Source: Bacteroidales bacterium
GTDB taxonomy: Bacteria; Bacteroidota; Bacteroidia; Bacteroidales; UBA12077
Direction: 5' to 3'
DNA length: 17,133 nt
NCBI GenBank assembly: GCA_030600865.1
Contig: JAUVUS010000005.1
Coordinates: 1-17,133 of the forward strand
Part shown: positions 146 through 16,812 of the stretch, one piece after another
How the letters are laid out: each line of letters starts with the position of its first letter
Position numbering within the stretch: the first letter of the stretch is position 1
The notes under the pieces: model-generated
Told to the model about the DNA's origin: nothing
The model's database searches: none
The model's input: only the letters and a program-made list of their open reading frames with translations
Program-made: the position numbers and the translations under genes

Positions 146-2866
146 TTAAAAACTTAAGGTTAATATTAACATATATGTTCGGCCATACATATAAAAATAA
201 TTAGCCGGATATTTATTTACATCTTTATCTTCGTAATCGAAACGAAGTTGTTCATATCCTCCGGTAATTACTTCCTGGTTATCCAAAACATTATTTACAA
301 CAACAAAAAGGCTCAGGTAATATTTATCAAATCGCCATGATTTTCCACCCTTCAAATTAAGGGTATATGAGTTTGGTAATCTTTCCTGACTGAGAATCTC
401 ATCAACAAGGTCTGAATTTAAATCTAAACCTTCAACTGCCCCAGCTGTTCGTCGTGCAGGATTAAAACTCAGGTAAGTATTATCAAAATAATTTGCATCA
501 ATATTAATCCACCAGTTTTTAGGAGCCCTGTACCCTACACCAACAGAAAGAGCCGTTTGAGGAGTTCCATCTACACGATAATCTTTAACATAAACCGTTT
601 CGTTGGTTGCAAGCGATTCAGAATCGTTATCTCTGGTAATACTCACATTAGGACGAGAATCCCAGGTATACTGACCAAGTGATGCTGCACCGGTAACAGT
701 TATAGTTGATGTTACTTTACCTTCAATCCCAAGTTCTAATCCAAAATGTTTTTTATCAATTCCACTCATAGCATAGTTAACAAAACTTTTATAACCATCG
801 TGATAAAAGCTCATCACATCAACCTGATCTTTAAAGGTAGTGTAGAATGCAGAAAATCTTCCAGTAATATATGGTAATCTTGCTAAGTAGTTAACATCAA
901 AACTCATAATTTTTTCGTCGGTTAAGCCATCAATCAAATGATCTCTCGTACGCGGGGAAACATATGCATCGTCAAAATAAGGAGCACGAGTTAAATAAGA
1001 ACCATTTGCATAAACAATATGTCGACCTGTAATTTTGTAAGTTAACCCGCCACTAAAACTATAATTTAGATAGGTTTGTTTTTCAGAATCGCCGTACGAT
1101 TCATCAGGGAATTTACCTACTCTCATATTACCAGTTCGGTAAAAAGATGTATTTATTAAACCTGCTCCAAGATATAAATCTAAATTATTATCTAAAGTGT
1201 AATCTGCTTTAAGCAAACCTCCAATACGATTAATATTTGCATCATAATCATAACCAAAGACATCACCTACAGTAGTAATTCTGTTTGGATTATTTAAATC
1301 GCTTTGTAACTGATCAGGATTATCAACATCTCCTTCGGCAAATTTATCAATATCGAACCAAAACTCTCCACCAAGTAAATCACTTACTTCTTTAAAATGT
1401 CTTCCTTTATAATTTGTGTAGTTTATATTAGCTAGTAAATTAAGATCCTCGTTAAATTCATAATTAAATTTCATATTTGCAGAAATCTGTGAGTGATCAA
1501 TTCTTCGATCTTCGATCATAAATTTTGATCGAATTCCATAATAATCATTTCCTTCAATACCATCCAAATCTTCTACTAAGTAGTATTCATCACTATTAGC
1601 CTGATACATACCGTCCCAGTCAACTTGTTGTTGAATCCAACCTTCATAAAATTCATCATTACGATTATAATATGGCAGGTTTCTATAATAATTAGGACGA
1701 GGATCAGGAGCATCGCCCCAGTTCAAGGCTGTATTTCCATCTCTTCCAAAAAAATATGAAACCGATGTATTAAGATCCATTTTTTCATTTATAGTCCATA
1801 AATGATTAAGCATAATATAAGGTTTCATTGTGTTAGCTACCCTTGCATTTCTTACTTCACCATCCTGGTAACCCCAGTTAGCATTGTAATAATTTGATCC
1901 GGCTAAATCGTATGCTTCTTGTGTTGAAGCTATTTGTTTACCCCGTTTATTTGGTGTGGCAAATGCTGTTAATGAAACAGTATGGTTTTCGTTAATTATT
2001 TTCTCGGCAGCAATAAAATATGCCGATGCATCGTAGAATGTTCCATCAACATATCCTTCCTGAGCCCAACGATGAGAACCAGATATTGTAAATGCCCAGT
2101 TATTATCCATTAAACCGGTAGACGCCGTAGCCATTACACGGTTTTTATAATTTGAGAGCCTAGACATATATGAAATTTTTATTCCTGGTCTGTAGCCAGA
2201 GGGTCGTGTAAGTAAATTTGCTCCTCCACCTAAATATGACAATGAAAGGTCGTTATTATCCTGACCAAAATAAATTTCTTTATTTCGTAGAACATCATTT
2301 AATCCACCCCAGTCAGAATATTTAGGTCTTCCTGTTTCAATGTTATTCATTTCTATACCATTGAAATATATTGCAGAATTTTCAGAATCGTAGCCTCGAG
2401 TCTTGTAACGCACTGCTCCAAAAGTATAAGCTGCAATTTGTGAGAAAACATCATCTGAAGAATGAAGTAATCCACTCATTGCCTGAGAGCTTTCTTCTTC
2501 TAAATCTGATTCTTCAAGCACAACCATAGGAAGATCATCTGAAATGTTTCCATAAGTATAAATCAGGTCAACTGATCCGATATTAAGAACTTCTTCCGTA
2601 CTCAACTCAAACTCTAATTGCTTAGGCTCATAATCAGTGCCGGTAAAAATTAATGTTCCCGTTCCAATAGGAACATTTTCTAAAATAAATTCTCCTTTGT
2701 TATCTGTATAAGCTTCAATAGATGTGCCATTTACCTGAATAAATACACCTTCGACAGGCTGAGCACTTTTACTATCAATTATTATCCCCTGAACAGAACC
2801 TGTCTGAGCCAGGGATGAGAAAGCTAAAAACAAAGAGAGAACAAAAAATAATGCAAGATGTCTCAT
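146..2866 (-). CDS. TonB-dependent outer-membrane receptor with carboxypeptidase-like regulatory domain
   Basis: A 906-residue outer-membrane receptor of the TonB-dependent, CarboxypepD_reg-like type, which imports a bound substrate using TonB/ExbBD energy. Residues 1-20 are a signal peptide ending SSLAQ. Residues about 23-95 form the CarboxypepD_reg-like beta-sandwich (VQGIIIDSKSAQPVEGVFIQ, then TDNKGEFILENVP). The plug follows at about 115-220 (RYKTRGYDSENSAIYFNGIE, later WGGLNDVLRNKEIYFG). The rest is a beta-barrel rich in alternating aromatic strands, ending in a terminal Phe (LILTLSF) as expected for barrel-assembly recognition. No classical SusD gene adjoins it; a small lipoprotein follows instead, and a secreted EEP-fold enzyme is divergent. 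The substrate cannot be read from the sequence. A link to nucleic acid or phosphodiester scavenging is inferred only from neighbours. Confidence 0.93.
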   Translation of the reverse strand: MRHLALFFVLSLFLAFSSLAQTGSVQGIIIDSKSAQPVEGVFIQVNGTSIEAYTDNKGEFILENVPIGTGTLIFTGTDYEPKQLEFELSTEEVLNIGSVDLIYTYGNISDDLPMVVLEESDLEEESSQAMSGLLHSSDDVFSQIAAYTFGAVRYKTRGYDSENSAIYFNGIEMNNIETGRPKYSDWGGLNDVLRNKEIYFGQDNNDLSLSYLGGGANLLTRPSGYRPGIKISYMSRLSNYKNRVMATASTGLMDNNWAFTISGSHRWAQEGYVDGTFYDASAYFIAAEKIINENHTVSLTAFATPNKRGKQIASTQEAYDLAGSNYYNANWGYQDGEVRNARVANTMKPYIMLNHLWTINEKMDLNTSVSYFFGRDGNTALNWGDAPDPRPNYYRNLPYYNRNDEFYEGWIQQQVDWDGMYQANSDEYYLVEDLDGIEGNDYYGIRSKFMIEDRRIDHSQISANMKFNYEFNEDLNLLANINYTNYKGRHFKEVSDLLGGEFWFDIDKFAEGDVDNPDQLQSDLNNPNRITTVGDVFGYDYDANINRIGGLLKADYTLDNNLDLYLGAGLINTSFYRTGNMRVGKFPDESYGDSEKQTYLNYSFSGGLTYKITGRHIVYANGSYLTRAPYFDDAYVSPRTRDHLIDGLTDEKIMSFDVNYLARLPYITGRFSAFYTTFKDQVDVMSFYHDGYKSFVNYAMSGIDKKHFGLELGIEGKVTSTITVTGAASLGQYTWDSRPNVSITRDNDSESLATNETVYVKDYRVDGTPQTALSVGVGYRAPKNWWINIDANYFDNTYLSFNPARRTAGAVEGLDLNSDLVDEILSQERLPNSYTLNLKGGKSWRFDKYYLSLFVVVNNVLDNQEVITGGYEQLRFDYEDKDVNKYPANYFYMYGRTYMLILTLSF

Positions 2867-4133: not shown

Positions 4134-4230
4134 CGTTTTATCAACATTTTCCAACTACTCATCAAAATTTATTAACTGATAATAAAATAAAAATGTAGTT
4201 TCACGGAAATTTTTTAACTAAACTTAAAAT

Positions 4231-7605: not shown

Positions 7606-8247
7606 TTAGAATCTTACTCCAATACGTATTCCGGAAGTAGCTGTTAAACCAAAATCATAATTACTTGATTCTCTTTGAGTAATTGTTCCATCAACAGTAA
7701 CTTCCTTATTTTTACGATAAGAAAAACCCGGAGCAAACTCAGCGCCTATATAAAAATTATCAAAAACATAATAATCAAATCCGGTTACAATATTAAATCC
7801 AACACCTAAATATCCTCCACCAAGGTTTTCATCTTCTGTTGTTGTACCGCCAACTTTTGTTTCTCTTTTGCTTGAGTATGTTGAAAATGGTATTTCTCCT
7901 CCTACATATACCAGAAACTTTTCGCTTCCAAAATGTTTTTCAATTCCCGGAGCGATGGAAAGATAAAAATTTGTATTTTTAATATAATCATCAATTGCCG
8001 GATCTACATTGGTGTATGTTTTATTGCCACCAAAACCTAATCCAATACCAGCTCGGATGGCAAGGTCTGATGAAATAAAATACCGTCCTTTAATAAGTGG
8101 CATTTGAAACATTGGGCCAGCACCGGCATCGAATATAGCTGCCGGATCAAAATTAAAATCAATGGCATACTTACCCTTACTTTCCTGGGCATTTGTGTTT
8201 GCGAAAACAAATACACTAATAAATAAAATACTAATAATTTTTTTCAT
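7606..8247 (-). CDS. Outer-membrane beta-barrel protein
   Basis: A 213-residue exported protein with signal peptide MKKIISILFISVFVFANTNA and cleavage before Gln. The mature part alternates polar and hydrophobic residues in strand-length segments with many Gly, Tyr and Phe residues (for example GYLGVGFNIVTGFDYYVFDN), and ends in a terminal Phe (GIRIGVRF). This is the pattern of the small porin-like or OmpA-barrel (8-10 strand) proteins common in Bacteroidota. No OmpA peptidoglycan-binding domain is present. The function (pore, adhesin or structural) is not visible. It is a single-gene unit, with its own terminator downstream and no neighbour close upstream (115 bases to the queG stop). Confidence 0.82.
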   Translation of the reverse strand: MKKIISILFISVFVFANTNAQESKGKYAIDFNFDPAAIFDAGAGPMFQMPLIKGRYFISSDLAIRAGIGLGFGGNKTYTNVDPAIDDYIKNTNFYLSIAPGIEKHFGSEKFLVYVGGEIPFSTYSSKRETKVGGTTTEDENLGGGYLGVGFNIVTGFDYYVFDNFYIGAEFAPGFSYRKNKEVTVDGTITQRESSNYDFGLTATSGIRIGVRF

Positions 8248-9745: not shown

Positions 9746-10171
9746 TTAATTTCCTATTTTTGCATTATATGCCATAGCATACAATTTCATTTGCTTAACC
9801 ATTGCCAACAGACCATTCGATCGCGTAGGCGATAAGTTTTGTTGTAATCCAATCTTATCAATAAAATATAATTCATTATTTAGGATATCAGCAGGTTTTT
9901 GCCCACTTAAAACCCGAACCAACAGAGCCGCAATACCTTTTGTAATAATTGCATCACTATCAGCTGAATATTTCACCACGTCACCTTCCATTTCGGCAAA
10001 AAGCCAAACTTTCGACTGGCAACCTTCAATTAAATATTCTTGTGTTTTATATTTAGGATCAATAACCGAAAGGTCTTTACTAAGCTCAATTAAGTAATTG
10101 TACTTATCCATCCAATCATCAAATACCGAAAACTCTTCAATAATTTCGTCTTGTTGTTCGTTTAATGTCAT
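9746..10171 (-). CDS. sufE: SufE family sulfur acceptor
   Basis: A 141-residue SufE, which takes persulfide sulfur from the SufS active site and passes it to the SufBCD scaffold. The acceptor Cys51 is in IEGCQSKVW, the family's invariant loop. Other conserved segments are FDDWMDKYNYLIELSKDL (17-34), DSDAIITKGIAALLVRVLSG and LSPTRSNGLLAMV. The length is normal. It starts 21 bases after sufS and ends 11 bases before the DUF59 gene, so it is part of the same operon. The start codon is ATG and nothing is missing. Confidence 0.96.
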   Translation of the reverse strand: MTLNEQQDEIIEEFSVFDDWMDKYNYLIELSKDLSVIDPKYKTQEYLIEGCQSKVWLFAEMEGDVVKYSADSDAIITKGIAALLVRVLSGQKPADILNNELYFIDKIGLQQNLSPTRSNGLLAMVKQMKLYAMAYNAKIGN

Positions 10172-10192: not shown

Positions 10193-11413
10193 TTAGCTAA
10201 ACATCTGTTTAACAGTCAATAAAGCTTCGTGTAATTTATCAATTTCTTCTTTTGTATTATAAAATGAAAATGAGGCACGAATTGTTCCTTCAATATTAAA
10301 ACGATCCATCAATGGTTCTGCACAATGATGACCAGTACGAACAGCAATTCCCATTTTATCAATTACCATTCCTGCATCGTAATGGTGAATATTATCAAGA
10401 ACGAAAGAGATTACACTTACTTTTTCTTCTGATGTTCCAATAATTCTCAGACCATCGATTGATTCCAGTTTTTTGGTAGCATAATCCAGTAATTCTTTTT
10501 CGTATACAGCAATATTTTCTAATCCAATATCCTGAATATAATTAATGGCTGCTACTAATCCGATTGCTCCAACGTAATTTGGTGTTCCTGCTTCGAATTT
10601 AAATGGCAGTTCGTTAAAAGTAGTTTTTTCGAATGTTACTTTTTTAATCATCTCGCCACCGGTCATGAACGGCGGCATTTCGTTAAGCCATTTTTCTTTA
10701 CCGTATATTACTCCTATTCCATTTGGGCCATATATTTTATGACCTGAAAAAACAAAAAAGTCGCAATCCAGTTCCTGCATATCAATATTACCGTGCTGAA
10801 TGCTTTGAGCACCATCAATTAAAACAGGAATATTTTGTTGATGTGCAATATCAATAAGCTTTTTAACATTATTTACCGTTCCTAATGCATTTGAAACCTG
10901 ATTAACTGCAACAATTTTTGTTTTCGGAGATATTAATTTTTGATATTCATCTAATAATAATTCTCCCTTATCATTTATCGGAATTACTTTTAAAATTGCC
11001 CCTTTTCGTTCGCAAAGCATTTGCCACGGAACAATGTTAGCATGATGTTCTAGTGTAGAAATGATAATCTCATCTCCTTCGGAAATATATTTTTCTCCAA
11101 AAGAAAATGCAATAGTATTGATCGATTCGGTTGTTCCGCTTGTGAAAATTACTTCGTGATCATGCTTAGCATTAATAAATTTCCGAACTGTTTTTCGGGC
11201 ATCTTCGTAACGCTGAGTTAATTGTTCGCTCAGATAATGTACTCCACGATGAATATTACTATTCTCATGAGAATAAATTTTGAGCTCTTCATCGATCACA
11301 ACTTGCGGCTTTTGAGTAGTTGCACCATTATCGAAATAAATCAAAGGTTTATTATAAACCTGTTGATTTAAGATTGGAAAATCATTACGTATTTTTTGAA
11401 TATCTAAACTCAA
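10193..11413 (-). CDS. sufS: Cysteine desulfurase SufS
   Basis: A 406-residue group II cysteine desulfurase, a PLP enzyme that strips sulfur from cysteine to give alanine and an enzyme-bound persulfide. The PLP-binding Lys226 is in FSGHKIYGPNG, the PLP-phosphate contacts are in TSGTTESIN (91-99), and the ring-stacking His is in LEHHANIVPW (121-130). The persulfide-bearing Cys364 is in AVRTGHHCAEPLM. RTGHHCA and the short lobe around it mark SufS rather than IscS, and SufE next door fits that pairing. Length and motifs are complete. It lies 17 bases after sufD on the same strand. Confidence 0.97.
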   Translation of the reverse strand: MSLDIQKIRNDFPILNQQVYNKPLIYFDNGATTQKPQVVIDEELKIYSHENSNIHRGVHYLSEQLTQRYEDARKTVRKFINAKHDHEVIFTSGTTESINTIAFSFGEKYISEGDEIIISTLEHHANIVPWQMLCERKGAILKVIPINDKGELLLDEYQKLISPKTKIVAVNQVSNALGTVNNVKKLIDIAHQQNIPVLIDGAQSIQHGNIDMQELDCDFFVFSGHKIYGPNGIGVIYGKEKWLNEMPPFMTGGEMIKKVTFEKTTFNELPFKFEAGTPNYVGAIGLVAAINYIQDIGLENIAVYEKELLDYATKKLESIDGLRIIGTSEEKVSVISFVLDNIHHYDAGMVIDKMGIAVRTGHHCAEPLMDRFNIEGTIRASFSFYNTKEEIDKLHEALLTVKQMFS

Positions 11414-11430: not shown

Positions 11431-12798
11431 TTAACAACAATGCATTTGACAATTATTACATCGCGATAATTCACCACGTAAACGCTTATCAACCAAATCC
11501 TGTATTCGCTCTTGTAAAGCAGGAACCTGAATTTTATGAATTACATCATGTGCAAATGCATACATCAGTAAAAGCTTTGCTTCCTTTTTATTAATACCGC
11601 GAGAACGTAAATAAAATAACGCATCCTCATCTAACTGACCAACAGTTGCCCCATGGCTACATTTCACATCATCGGCATAAATTTCCAATTGTGGTTTAGT
11701 ATTAAAATCGGCATCGTCAGTAAGCAAAATATTATTATTTGTCTGGTATGCCAGAGTGTTTTGCGCATCCTTCCTTACTAATACTTTACCATTAAAAGCT
11801 CCTGTGGCAAAATCGTCCAAAACACCTTTAAATAATTGATTACTCGTACAATTAGGATTGGCATGATCAATAAATACATAATTATCAATATGCTGGCCTT
11901 TATCGGTTAAATATAGGCCATAAGTATTGTTTTCACAGCCTTCACCGTTTAATAATACATTTACATTATTTCTGATTAAACCACCGTGTAATGAAATATT
12001 ATTTGCACTTACGCGGCTATCTCTTTCCTGATGGAAATATAAATGAGAAACCTGCTTTGAACCATTATGCTCATTTTGCATTCTTGAAAAATCAAATTGT
12101 GCATTTTCACCAATGTAAAACTCAGAAACTGAATTTGTAACAAAATTAGGCATTGATAATGTATGGTCACACACAACAATTGATGCCTGACTATTCTCTT
12201 CAAGAATAAATAAATTACGATGTTGAGTCAATCCCTCCTCATCGTCCATTAATATATTTATAATCTGAATTGGTTTCTCAATTACAACCCCTTTAGGAAC
12301 ATATAAGAAAACGCCATCTTTTACAAATGCTGTATTTAATGCAACTAAACCTTCATTTTCAAAACCGGCATATTTAGCGAAATGCTTTTTAACCAAATCA
12401 GGATATAATTCTGCAGCTTTTTGAAAACTCCCAATTATAACACCTCCCGGGAGTTCTTGAATTAAATTTTCTCTATCGTAATACCAACCATTTAAAAGAA
12501 GAATAACTTTAGTATTTAAATCCGGAACATCACATTTAAAAATATCATCAACCTGAAATTCAATATTCTTAGGTGATAAATACATTTTATAAGTATTATC
12601 AAACTCCTTATTCAGATCGGTATATTTATAATTCTCATTTTTTTTATCAGGAATACCCAGCTTTTTAAATTGTTCAAATGCTTTTTCACGAACTTCATTG
12701 ATATAATCAGGCAAGTCGTTTTTAATTAAATCCTGATTCTCCTGATATAATTCAATGAAACGTTCTTTAGTATCCGTTTTAATTGTTTCTAAGCTCAT
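11431..12798 (-). CDS. sufD: SUF scaffold protein SufD with a Cys-rich tail
   Basis: A 455-residue SufD, the SufB paralogue that completes the SufB-SufC2-SufD scaffold on which [Fe-S] clusters form. The parallel beta-helix core includes LTQHRNLFILEENSQASIV. The C-terminal hallmark is CSHGATVGQLDEDALFYLRSRGI with Cys380 and His382, the residues equivalent to those needed for assembly in other SufD proteins. After the usual helical end comes a tail rich in cysteine: Cys447, Cys450, His453, Cys454 and Cys455 (RCNNCQMHCC). Such a tail could bind metal or a cluster, or accept sulfur; this is inference. The gene starts 42 bases after the sufC reading frame and is separated from sufS by 17 bases. 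Confidence 0.95.
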   Translation of the reverse strand: MSLETIKTDTKERFIELYQENQDLIKNDLPDYINEVREKAFEQFKKLGIPDKKNENYKYTDLNKEFDNTYKMYLSPKNIEFQVDDIFKCDVPDLNTKVILLLNGWYYDRENLIQELPGGVIIGSFQKAAELYPDLVKKHFAKYAGFENEGLVALNTAFVKDGVFLYVPKGVVIEKPIQIINILMDDEEGLTQHRNLFILEENSQASIVVCDHTLSMPNFVTNSVSEFYIGENAQFDFSRMQNEHNGSKQVSHLYFHQERDSRVSANNISLHGGLIRNNVNVLLNGEGCENNTYGLYLTDKGQHIDNYVFIDHANPNCTSNQLFKGVLDDFATGAFNGKVLVRKDAQNTLAYQTNNNILLTDDADFNTKPQLEIYADDVKCSHGATVGQLDEDALFYLRSRGINKKEAKLLLMYAFAHDVIHKIQVPALQERIQDLVDKRLRGELSRCNNCQMHCC

Positions 12799-12840: not shown

Positions 12841-13383
12841 TTATTCAACACCTTTCTTCAGCCAGTCATATCCCTTTTCTTCAAGTTCAAGAGCCAGTTC
12901 TTTTCCCCCGGATTTAATTATTTTGCCATTATATAAAACATGAACAAAGTCAGGAACTATATAATCAAGTAATCTTTGATAATGAGTAATTACAATACTT
13001 GCATTATCAGGAGATTTTAATTTATTTACTCCGTTTGCAACCACTTTTAATGCGTCAATATCCAAACCTGAATCCGTTTCATCCAGAATTGATAATTTTG
13101 GTTCCAACATCGCCATCTGGAAAATTTCATTTCTTTTTTTCTCTCCACCTGAAAAACCTTCATTAACCGATCTGCTTACTAAATCTGCATCTAGTTCAAC
13201 TAATTCCTTTTTTTCGCGCATTAGTTTTAAGAAATCTGACGAAGATAAAGGTTCCAGTCCTTTATGTTTTCGCTGCTCATTTACTGCAGTTTTCATAAAG
13301 TTAACCATACTAACACCCGGAATTTCTATCGGATACTGAAATCCAAGGAATATTCCTTCGCTTGCACGCTCTTCAGGAGACAT
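12841..13383 (-). CDS. sufC: SufC ATPase, C-terminal part (downstream of in-frame stop)
   Basis: This open frame of 180 codons is the second part of sufC, beginning with ATG directly after the TAA at 13384-13386. It carries the Q-loop (FLGFQ, Gln16 of this part), the ABC signature FSGGEKKR (77-84), Walker B with the catalytic Glu ([12 protein letters not shown], Glu102) and the H-loop His134 (VITHYQ). Every element after the P-loop is intact, and no frame change is needed to join it to the upstream part. Together the parts have exactly the length of a normal SufC (249 codons including the stop position). SufC hydrolyses ATP to drive the SufB-SufD scaffold. Alone this part has no Walker A and could not bind ATP. 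It may be made by reinitiation, made by readthrough, or not made at all. Confidence 0.85.
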
Positions 13384-13386
13384 TTA
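13381..13386 (-). other. In-frame stop-start junction (TAA-ATG) inside sufC
   Basis: On the minus strand the bases read GAC CTT TTT TAA ATG TCT CCT. The TAA replaces a codon that is normally Glu in this SufC segment (DLF-E-MSPEERA), one substitution from GAA. The ATG directly after it is in the same frame. No insertion or deletion is present. TAA ends most other genes in the window, so the code is not reassigned. Confidence 0.9.
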
Positions 13387-13590
13387 AAAAAGGTCATTTC
13401 CTAAATAAGTTATTTTACCTTCAGTTACTTCAAACAAGTCTCTTCCTACTAACACAGAAGCCAATGTGCTTTTCCCGGAACCATTCGGTCCCATAATAGC
13501 ATGAACCTCTCCTGCTTTTACTTCAAGATTAATTCCTTTCAGAATCTCTTTTCCTTCAATGGATGCGTGTAAATTTTTTATTGATAACAT
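13384..13590 (-). CDS. sufC: SufC ATPase, N-terminal part (ends at in-frame TAA)
   Basis: The first 68 codons of sufC, from ATG at 13588-13590 to TAA at 13384-13386. It carries the first strands (MLSIKNLHASIEGKEILKGI) and a perfect Walker A, GPNGSGKS at residues 34-41 with Lys40, and ends EGKITYLGNDLF. I chose this start because SufC proteins begin here. The longer frame reaching 13632 runs through intergenic repeat debris and its extra 14 residues resemble nothing in the family. In intact SufC this segment continues straight into the SPEERA helix. Here translation should stop in the surface loop between the last strand of the first subdomain and that helix, giving a short ATP-loop fragment. 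Confidence 0.85.
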   Translation of the reverse strand: MLSIKNLHASIEGKEILKGINLEVKAGEVHAIMGPNGSGKSTLASVLVGRDLFEVTEGKITYLGNDLF

Positions 13591-13686: not shown

Positions 13687-15138
13687 TTATCCAACACTTC
13701 CTTCCAAGCTAATTTGTAAAAGTTTTTGAGCTTCTACGGCAAACTCCATAGGTAGTTTATTTAACACTTCTTTTGCATATCCGTTTACAATTAAACCAAT
13801 TGCATCTTCGGTTTTAATCCCACGCTGGTTACAATAGAAAATTTGGTCTTCACCAATTTTTGATGTAGTAGCTTCATGTTCAACAATTGAATCTTTATTA
13901 TCTACTTCGATATATGGAAAGGTGTGAGCTCCGCATTTATCACCTAATAAAAGGCTATCGCATTGTGAAAAGTTACGGGCATTTGTAGCATTCTTAACTA
14001 CTTTTACCAAACCACGATAACTATTCTGGCTAAATCCGGCAGAAATACCTTTTGAAATAATAAGACTTTTAGTGTTTTTACCAATATGTATCATTTTAGT
14101 TCCTGTATCGGCTTGTTGGTGATTATTAGTTACAGCAACAGAATAAAATTCACCAACCGAATTATCTCCTAATAATAAACAACTTGGATATTTCCAGGTA
14201 ATCGCAGAACCTGTTTCAACTTGAGTCCAGGATATTTTTGAATTTTCACCAACACATTTAGCACGCTTTGTTACAAAATTATAAATACCTCCCTTACCAT
14301 TCTTATCTCCCGGATACCAATTTTGTACTGTTGAATATTTTACTTCAGCATTTTTATTTACAATAATTTCAACAATTGCTGCATGAAGTTGGTTTTCATC
14401 TCTTTGTGGTGCAGTGCAGCCTTCCAGATAGCTAACATAAGAATCATCTTCTGCTATAATCAGTGTTCTCTCAAACTGGCCTGTATTAGCGGCATTAATC
14501 CTAAAATATGTTGATAATTCCATCGGGCATCTTACACCTTTTGGAATATAACAGAAAGAACCATCGCTAAATACAGCAGAATTCAGAGCTGCAAAATAAT
14601 TATCAGTATATGGTACAACTGATCCCATATATTTTTTAATCAGATCGGGATGTTCCTGAACTGCTTCGCTAAACGAACAGAAAATAATTCCTAGTTCCGC
14701 AAGATTCTCTTTAAAAGTAGTTTTTACTGAAACACTATCCATTACAGCGTCAACAGCAATCCCTGAAAGCATCTTTTGTTCGTCTAAGGGAATACCCAAT
14801 TTATCAAAAGTTGCTTTTAATTCAGGGTCAACATCGTCCATGCTTTTTGGTCCAGATGCTTTTTGCTTTGGTACAGAATAATATATTATATCCTGATAAT
14901 TTATTTTTGGAATAATCAAATGAGCCCATTCAGGCATTTTCAAGGTTTGCCAGTAACGAAATGCTTTTAATCTGAACTCCAGCATAAATTCTGGTTCATT
15001 CTTTTTTTGGGAAATAAGCCTGACAACATCCTCGTTCAAACCCTTTGGAATAGCTTCATTCTCAATATCTGTAACAAAACCGTATTTATATTCACCCTGT
15101 GTTACTTCCTTTAATATTTTATCTTGATCTTTTTCCAT
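13687..15138 (-). CDS. sufB: SUF scaffold protein SufB
   Basis: A 483-residue SufB, the core scaffold that receives persulfide from SufE and builds [Fe-S] clusters with SufC and SufD. Key segments are [17 protein letters not shown], the core motif [17 protein letters not shown], then [17 protein letters not shown] (Cys393 and Cys402) and [14 protein letters not shown] (His421). The Cys393-His421 spacing of 28 equals that of the E. coli Cys405-His433 pair, so the assembly site is intact. I place the start at the ATG at 15136-15138 ([12 protein letters not shown]), which matches family length. The frame stays open to an ATG at 15225, but that extension overlaps the likely promoter (15203-15210) and its residues look non-coding. 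It is the first gene of the SUF operon. Confidence 0.96.
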
Positions 15139-15165
15139 AAATTTGCAAAATCTATATAAAAATTT

Positions 15166-15176
15166 AGCACTGTGCT
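15166..15176. promoter_or_regulatory. Palindrome AGCAC-T-GTGCT in the sufB leader
   Basis: AGCAC (15166-15170) and GTGCT (15172-15176) form a perfect inverted repeat around one central base, 27 bases before the sufB start and downstream of the predicted transcription start. G+C-containing palindromes are rare in this AT-rich DNA, so it may be an operator half-pair or a small leader hairpin. It does not match the Fur or E. coli IscR consensus that I know. Confidence 0.4.
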
Positions 15177-15180
15177 TAAA

Positions 15181-15193
15181 TAGATTAAATCTA
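15181..15193. promoter_or_regulatory. Palindrome TAGATT-A-AATCTA at the predicted sufB transcription start
   Basis: TAGATT (15181-15186) and AATCTA (15188-15193) are perfect inverted copies around one base. They lie just downstream of the -7 element at 15203-15210, where a bound repressor would block initiation. The regulator is unknown; an Rrf2-type or Fur-like protein sensing iron or clusters would be a natural candidate (inference). Confidence 0.45.
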
Positions 15194-15202
15194 AATTGGG
15201 TG

Positions 15203-15210
15203 CAAATATA
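15203..15210 (-). promoter_or_regulatory. Likely sufB operon promoter (-7 element TATATTTG)
   Basis: The minus strand reads TATATTTG from 15210 to 15203, an exact match to the Bacteroidota TAnnTTTG -7 consensus. A TTTA that could stand for the TTTG -33 element lies 19 bases upstream. The start point would be near 15196, giving a leader of about 58 bases before sufB. This supports the start at 15138. Confidence 0.6.
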
Positions 15211-15281
15211 TTTAAAATATAACAACTAATAAAGCAAGATTGTTTAATCTTTTTTATTCATGATAAATATCAATTTTTAAG

Positions 15282-16353: not shown

Positions 16354-16812
16354 TCAATTAACAACATTAATTAATTCAATTTCAAATATCAAAACAGAAT
16401 TTGCTGGAATACCAGACCTAGCATCAGATCCATATCCTAATCCGGAAGGGATAAGCAAAATACCTTCACCTCCTTCTTTAAAGAACTGCATACCTTCCTG
16501 CCAACCATCAATGTAACGATACAAAGGATAATCATTAACAACTCCTTCGTCAAATACGTCACCATTCAATAAATAACCTTTATAATCGACCTTTACTATG
16601 GAATTAAGAGTAGGATAATTCCCTATTCCTTCCTCTTCAATAATATAATGTAATCCAGACGCAGTTGATTCTGCAACCAAACTACTATCTATTAAATACG
16701 CTTCAATTAATTCAATATCTTTTTTAAGCTGTTCTGCCACAGGATCATCTTCTTCACAAGCCGCAAAAATAAAAACCGATATTACTAAAAGAAAAAATAA
16801 CTTTTTCATCAT
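16354..16812 (-). CDS. FKBP-type peptidyl-prolyl cis-trans isomerase lipoprotein
   Basis: A 152-residue lipoprotein with one FKBP domain, which speeds cis-trans isomerisation of X-Pro bonds during folding of exported proteins. Residues 1-18 are a lipoprotein signal (FFLLVISVFIFAA) with the lipidated Cys19, followed by an acidic EEDDP, a pattern compatible with periplasmic or surface location. The FKBP domain spans about 50-152: VKVDYKGYLLNGDVFDEG, then GWQEGMQFFKEGGEGILLIP, GLGYGSDARSGIPANSVLIFEIEL. These are the usual active-site aromatics (Tyr of VDYKGYL, Phe of DVFDEG, Trp of GWQEG, Tyr of GLGYG). A second ATG at codon 2 is an equally good start. It stops 28 bases from the convergent thiL. 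Confidence 0.94.
   Translation of the reverse strand: MMKKLFFLLVISVFIFAACEEDDPVAEQLKKDIELIEAYLIDSSLVAESTASGLHYIIEEEGIGNYPTLNSIVKVDYKGYLLNGDVFDEGVVNDYPLYRYIDGWQEGMQFFKEGGEGILLIPSGLGYGSDARSGIPANSVLIFEIELINVVN

Follow-up and report, generated by a model that had tools for sequence, protein, structure and literature searches.

SufC is the ABC-type ATPase of the SufBCD complex. Its structures include PDB entries 2D3W/5AWF and 2D2E, which we take to be the E. coli and T. thermophilus proteins. Our search of the literature on SufC with a premature stop, at the level of titles and abstract openings, showed no report of a split SufC among the papers listed. The window (the whole 17,133-nucleotide stretch analysed here) corresponds to contig C443; the bin to which it belongs totals 2.80 Mb over 467 contigs, with a completeness of 71.97 and a contamination of 2.15. 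Its sufC gene gives a full-length match in one frame to the SufC of the SufBCD complex (TIGR01978), lies between genes that look like sufB and sufD, and differs solely by an in-frame TAA at codon 69. The features of the region are as follows.

13384..13590, minus strand: 5' part of sufC, codons 1-68 plus the in-frame TAA; matches Pfam ABC_tran 1-49 and presumably carries Walker A
13384..13386, minus strand: the in-frame TAA, codon 69; GAA in the sister genomes G004, G011 and G015 by codon comparison
12841..13383, minus strand: 3' part of sufC, codons 70-249 plus its own stop; matches Pfam ABC_tran 79-135, shares 99% identity with its counterpart in the open G004 sufC frame and presumably carries the Q-loop, signature and Walker B
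13687..15138, minus strand: sufB-like gene, open, with the start placed at an ATG inside the 13687-15225 frame
11431..12798, minus strand: sufD-like gene, an open reading frame
10193..11413, minus strand: open reading frame that we take to be a sufS-like cysteine desulfurase gene
9746..10171, minus strand: open reading frame that we take to be a sufE-like gene

The open frames on either side of sufC resemble sufB and sufD, names that we assume from the sequence and the operon position. The sufC frame runs on the minus strand from 13590 to 12841 and reads MLSIKNLHASIEGK...GNDLF, TAA, ATG, SPEERASEG..., ending in GVE and a second TAA; that is, residues M1-F68 and the stop are followed, still in frame, by ATG (13381-13383) and another 179 residues. 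This frame scored 359.7 bits against the NCBIfam sufC profile (TIGR01978), above the curated cut-off of 212.8 bits, and matched positions 1-243 of 243 with one TAA inside, which the tool read through. Each part covers a different portion of a single ABC ATPase domain, and the two portions complement each other. The frame reading, the sufC profile and ABC_tran thus bear out what had been proposed from the letters alone (the sequence-only reading), namely the coordinates, the shared frame, the TAA abutting an ATG and the identity of both parts as one SufC. The deposited consensus does not encode SufC as one uninterrupted chain of ~250 aa, since the TAA interrupts it at codon 69; the G004 protein is 249 aa long.

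The nearest sister, G004, is 96.8% identical to the window across 4,265 bases. Within sufC it differs at six synonymous codons and one nonsynonymous codon and has GAA in place of the TAA, and the small number of differences indicates that both parts of the gene are conserved. A sufC-level match was present in 55 of 59 genomes (the window's own included) and was not found in G013, G036, G037 and G041; G013 belongs to the same genus and is 96% complete. Codon 69 was read in 30 of the 54 relatives, where it is GAA in 15, GAG in eight, GAT in five, GAC in one and CAG in one, with no stop at any of the 30 loci. For the remaining 24, whose codon was not read, the match to the 3' part lies within open frames as long as an entire SufC (251-293 aa). 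A TAA flagged in G028 was rejected as a shared stop and is taken as the gene's own, since that sufC (L042) lies within an open 305-aa frame with the usual C-terminus.

More distant sequences gave the same picture. Among 80 named loci (the best 80 of 591, which are at most 80% identical to the window in the best segment and may omit the records nearest to it), the aligned residue is Glu in 43, Asp in 24, Ala in seven, Gly in three, Lys in two and Ser in one, and no stop appears in any alignment. In alignments with the uninterrupted sister protein P0002 (249 aa), which cover residues 1-245 for the 2D3W chain and 2-248 for 2D2E, the residue aligned to codon 69 is Ala in the former and Glu in the latter. 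The variation among named loci and structures shows that the position is not invariant; the expectation that Glu belongs where the TAA now stands is nonetheless upheld by the GAA of the three closest sisters. Across 393 genomes of the order, 374 have a sufC above the cut-off and there is no stop among the matches listed, a set that excludes the weaker rows and the window's own and is hence not a full count. Within the best 120 proteins of a capped set of 8000 scored, the window's 180-aa product alone starts at the junction Met, and the 119 others have residues on both sides of the junction, including four other short proteins (197-208 aa) that all contain residues before it. A protein from another record, P0005, differs from the window SufC by one residue besides the stop. 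We therefore rejected a stop common to relatives (0 of 30 relatives' loci; 0 of the best 80 of 591 named loci), and the conservation of the split that would mark a natural coupled split gene was found at none of the same loci. The comparison with sister genomes that the sequence-only reading had proposed thus counts against a functional split, the stop being absent wherever relatives were read.

That reading had also offered a two-chain SufC, translated by termination at the TAA and reinitiation at the ATG, with the halves assembling into a working ATPase. Such a product would draw on the shared frame, the stop abutting an ATG and the conservation of both parts relative to G004. We consider it very improbable, because the arrangement occurs on the window contig alone among the relatives, named loci (best 80 of 591) and proteins compared, and because the ATG was there beforehand: it encodes the Met of EMSPEER, a native residue that the three closest sisters share and that stands at this place in 13 of the 30 relatives and in 30 of the best 80 of 591 named loci. 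A single base change is sufficient to create the whole TAA-ATG arrangement. Codons 1-248 of the G004 sufC (744 bases x 3) allow 2,232 single-base changes, of which 126 (5.6%) are nonsense; two of these 126 fall directly before an ATG (~1.6%), and five precede an ATG, GTG or TTG. Since the adjacency would arise by chance in ~1.6% of cases, was noticed after the fact and involves a native Met codon, it is weak evidence. A split at this point would also part Walker A from the Q-loop and signature. We give equally little credence to a version private to this lineage, in which one base change turned the native Met into a second start and both halves still join SufB and SufD. A real split would be a test of whether an ABC ATPase domain can function with a break separating Walker A from the Q-loop.

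The stop in sufC has company within the bin. In a scan of 61 of the 467 contigs, we found four further genes that a single in-frame stop interrupts and whose counterparts in relatives are open:

L130 (G000:C175) 1369-1371, minus strand: TAA in atpD (VPADD*TDPAP); TTA in relatives, with the frame open
L179 (G000:C417) 8066-8068, plus strand: TAG in an ABC ATPase with a TOBE domain, between the two domains; sense codon in relatives
L169 (G000:C308) 4187-4189, plus strand: TAA in an ABC-2 permease; sense codon in relatives
L148 (G000:C59) 1155-1157, minus strand: TGA in a small membrane protein; sense codon in relatives

For atpD, four of the five relatives searched gave a match, all four with TTA and an open frame; the fifth, G004, gave none. 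The ABC ATPase was matched in 10 of 11 relatives, all 10 with a sense codon and an aligned stretch without a stop; the codon is CAG in the nearest three (G011, G004 and G015) and TAC, AAA (four relatives), AGA or CGA in the other seven. The permease was likewise matched in 10 of 11 (TCA in eight, TCT in one, TTT in one; no stop in the aligned stretch), and the small membrane protein in two of 11, both with TGG. No ATG follows any of these four stops, a further point against a two-chain SufC. Each of the five stops, that of sufC included, is one base away from a sense codon of the nearest relatives read, and the changes on the coding strand are G>T, T>A, C>T, C>A and G>A. Because the kinds of base change differ, no single damage type or error source is indicated.

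Readthrough or reassignment of TAA, the remaining suggestion of the sequence-only reading, has the continuation of the frame in its favour and nothing else, and no relative read has the stop. Within the window, TAA also serves as the terminal stop of sufC and of the sufS-like gene. The internal stops in the bin replace different residues (Glu in sufC; Leu, Gln, Ser and Trp in the other four), and TAA, TAG and TGA are all represented, on which grounds we rejected codon reassignment. We regard this explanation as the least credible of all.

The scan searched for two open frames joined by one stop and covered 408,265 bases, with the window included and C302 covered in part. It gave 15 + 22 frame pairs, from which candidate broken genes were first picked by eye; the comparison with relatives then covered five of these 37 pairs, the ones named here. 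The sample was neither random nor blind. It comprised 20 contigs taken at every 25th, with C1 and C460 added, and 40 further contigs, 11 of which had already been seen in the sufC profile search and one of which (C208) had been seen in the NifU_N search; the TAG on C417 was visible in the sufC profile search before that contig was chosen. The 20 stepped contigs (133,764 bases) yielded one case, atpD. As a control, 340,000 bases of the relative G016 were scanned in the same way; of the 29 frame pairs obtained, none resembled one split protein by eye.

Whole genes in the relatives, together with other genes of the bin cut in the same way, make a sequence error or a chance mutation probable, rather than a new two-piece protein. 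Intact sisters and four other cut genes likewise favour the first option of the sequence-only reading, a recent mutation or sequence error, and the sufC stop appears to belong to a set of scattered base errors or rare mutations of the strain. We conclude, with a probability of roughly 0.7, that the suf operon contains an ordinary sufC, present as a single copy, for which the consensus shows TAA instead of a sense codon, most likely through an erroneous base in what is a fragmented metagenome assembly. The error would then lie in the assembly alone, and the living cell would make one normal SufC chain. Five nonsense changes in ~0.4 Mb imply, given the share of changes that are nonsense, some 90 wrong or new bases, on the order of 2 in 10,000; this is a rough figure from a small and partly chosen sample. 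As a rough judgement, such a rate is more in keeping with a low-coverage consensus than with a cell that has lost both SUF and ATP synthase, a combination that seems less likely than scattered base errors. On the other side, real nonsense variants in a mixed population would give the same picture. With single in-frame stops in several of its conserved genes, pseudogene or split-gene calls from this bin are untrustworthy without reads.

A real and recent nonsense mutation, fixed or segregating, would mean that sufC is broken in the sampled strain and that its function is lost or supplied by another copy or system. We consider this unlikely, though far less so than two chains or readthrough. It takes the deposited sequence as it stands, and a decaying or mutator strain could show the same four other cut genes. 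Divergence from G004 also lends it something: a thiL-like frame near sufC has 10 nonsynonymous and nine synonymous codon differences, and a frame at 16354-16812 on the minus strand of the window, presumably an FKBP-type peptidyl-prolyl isomerase, has 24 and 16, both without a stop. These many nonsynonymous differences indicate that the two lineages are not equally constrained everywhere. Against it, the sufB-like gene has 44 synonymous and four nonsynonymous differences and no stop or frameshift, the 50 sufD codons covered by G004 have neither, and atpD would have to be dead as well.

Nor does the bin offer a replacement, as far as its ~72% completeness and 467 contigs allow. The search for a second sufC that the sequence-only reading had called for found none above 212.8 bits, the next match scoring 101.1 bits, and we accordingly rejected the idea that the window sufC is a spare copy. 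The bin holds one NifU_N-type gene, L143 (G000:C208), which, judged by eye, has a small NifX-like frame on one side and two MinD/Mrp-like ATPases on the other; this neighbourhood does not look like an ISC operon, which also weighs against a lost sufC. The MinD/Mrp-like ATPases carry, by eye, ferredoxin-type cysteines. The sufC profile search of the bin also returned an ABC-type match with one TAA inside, at G000:C280:235-522.
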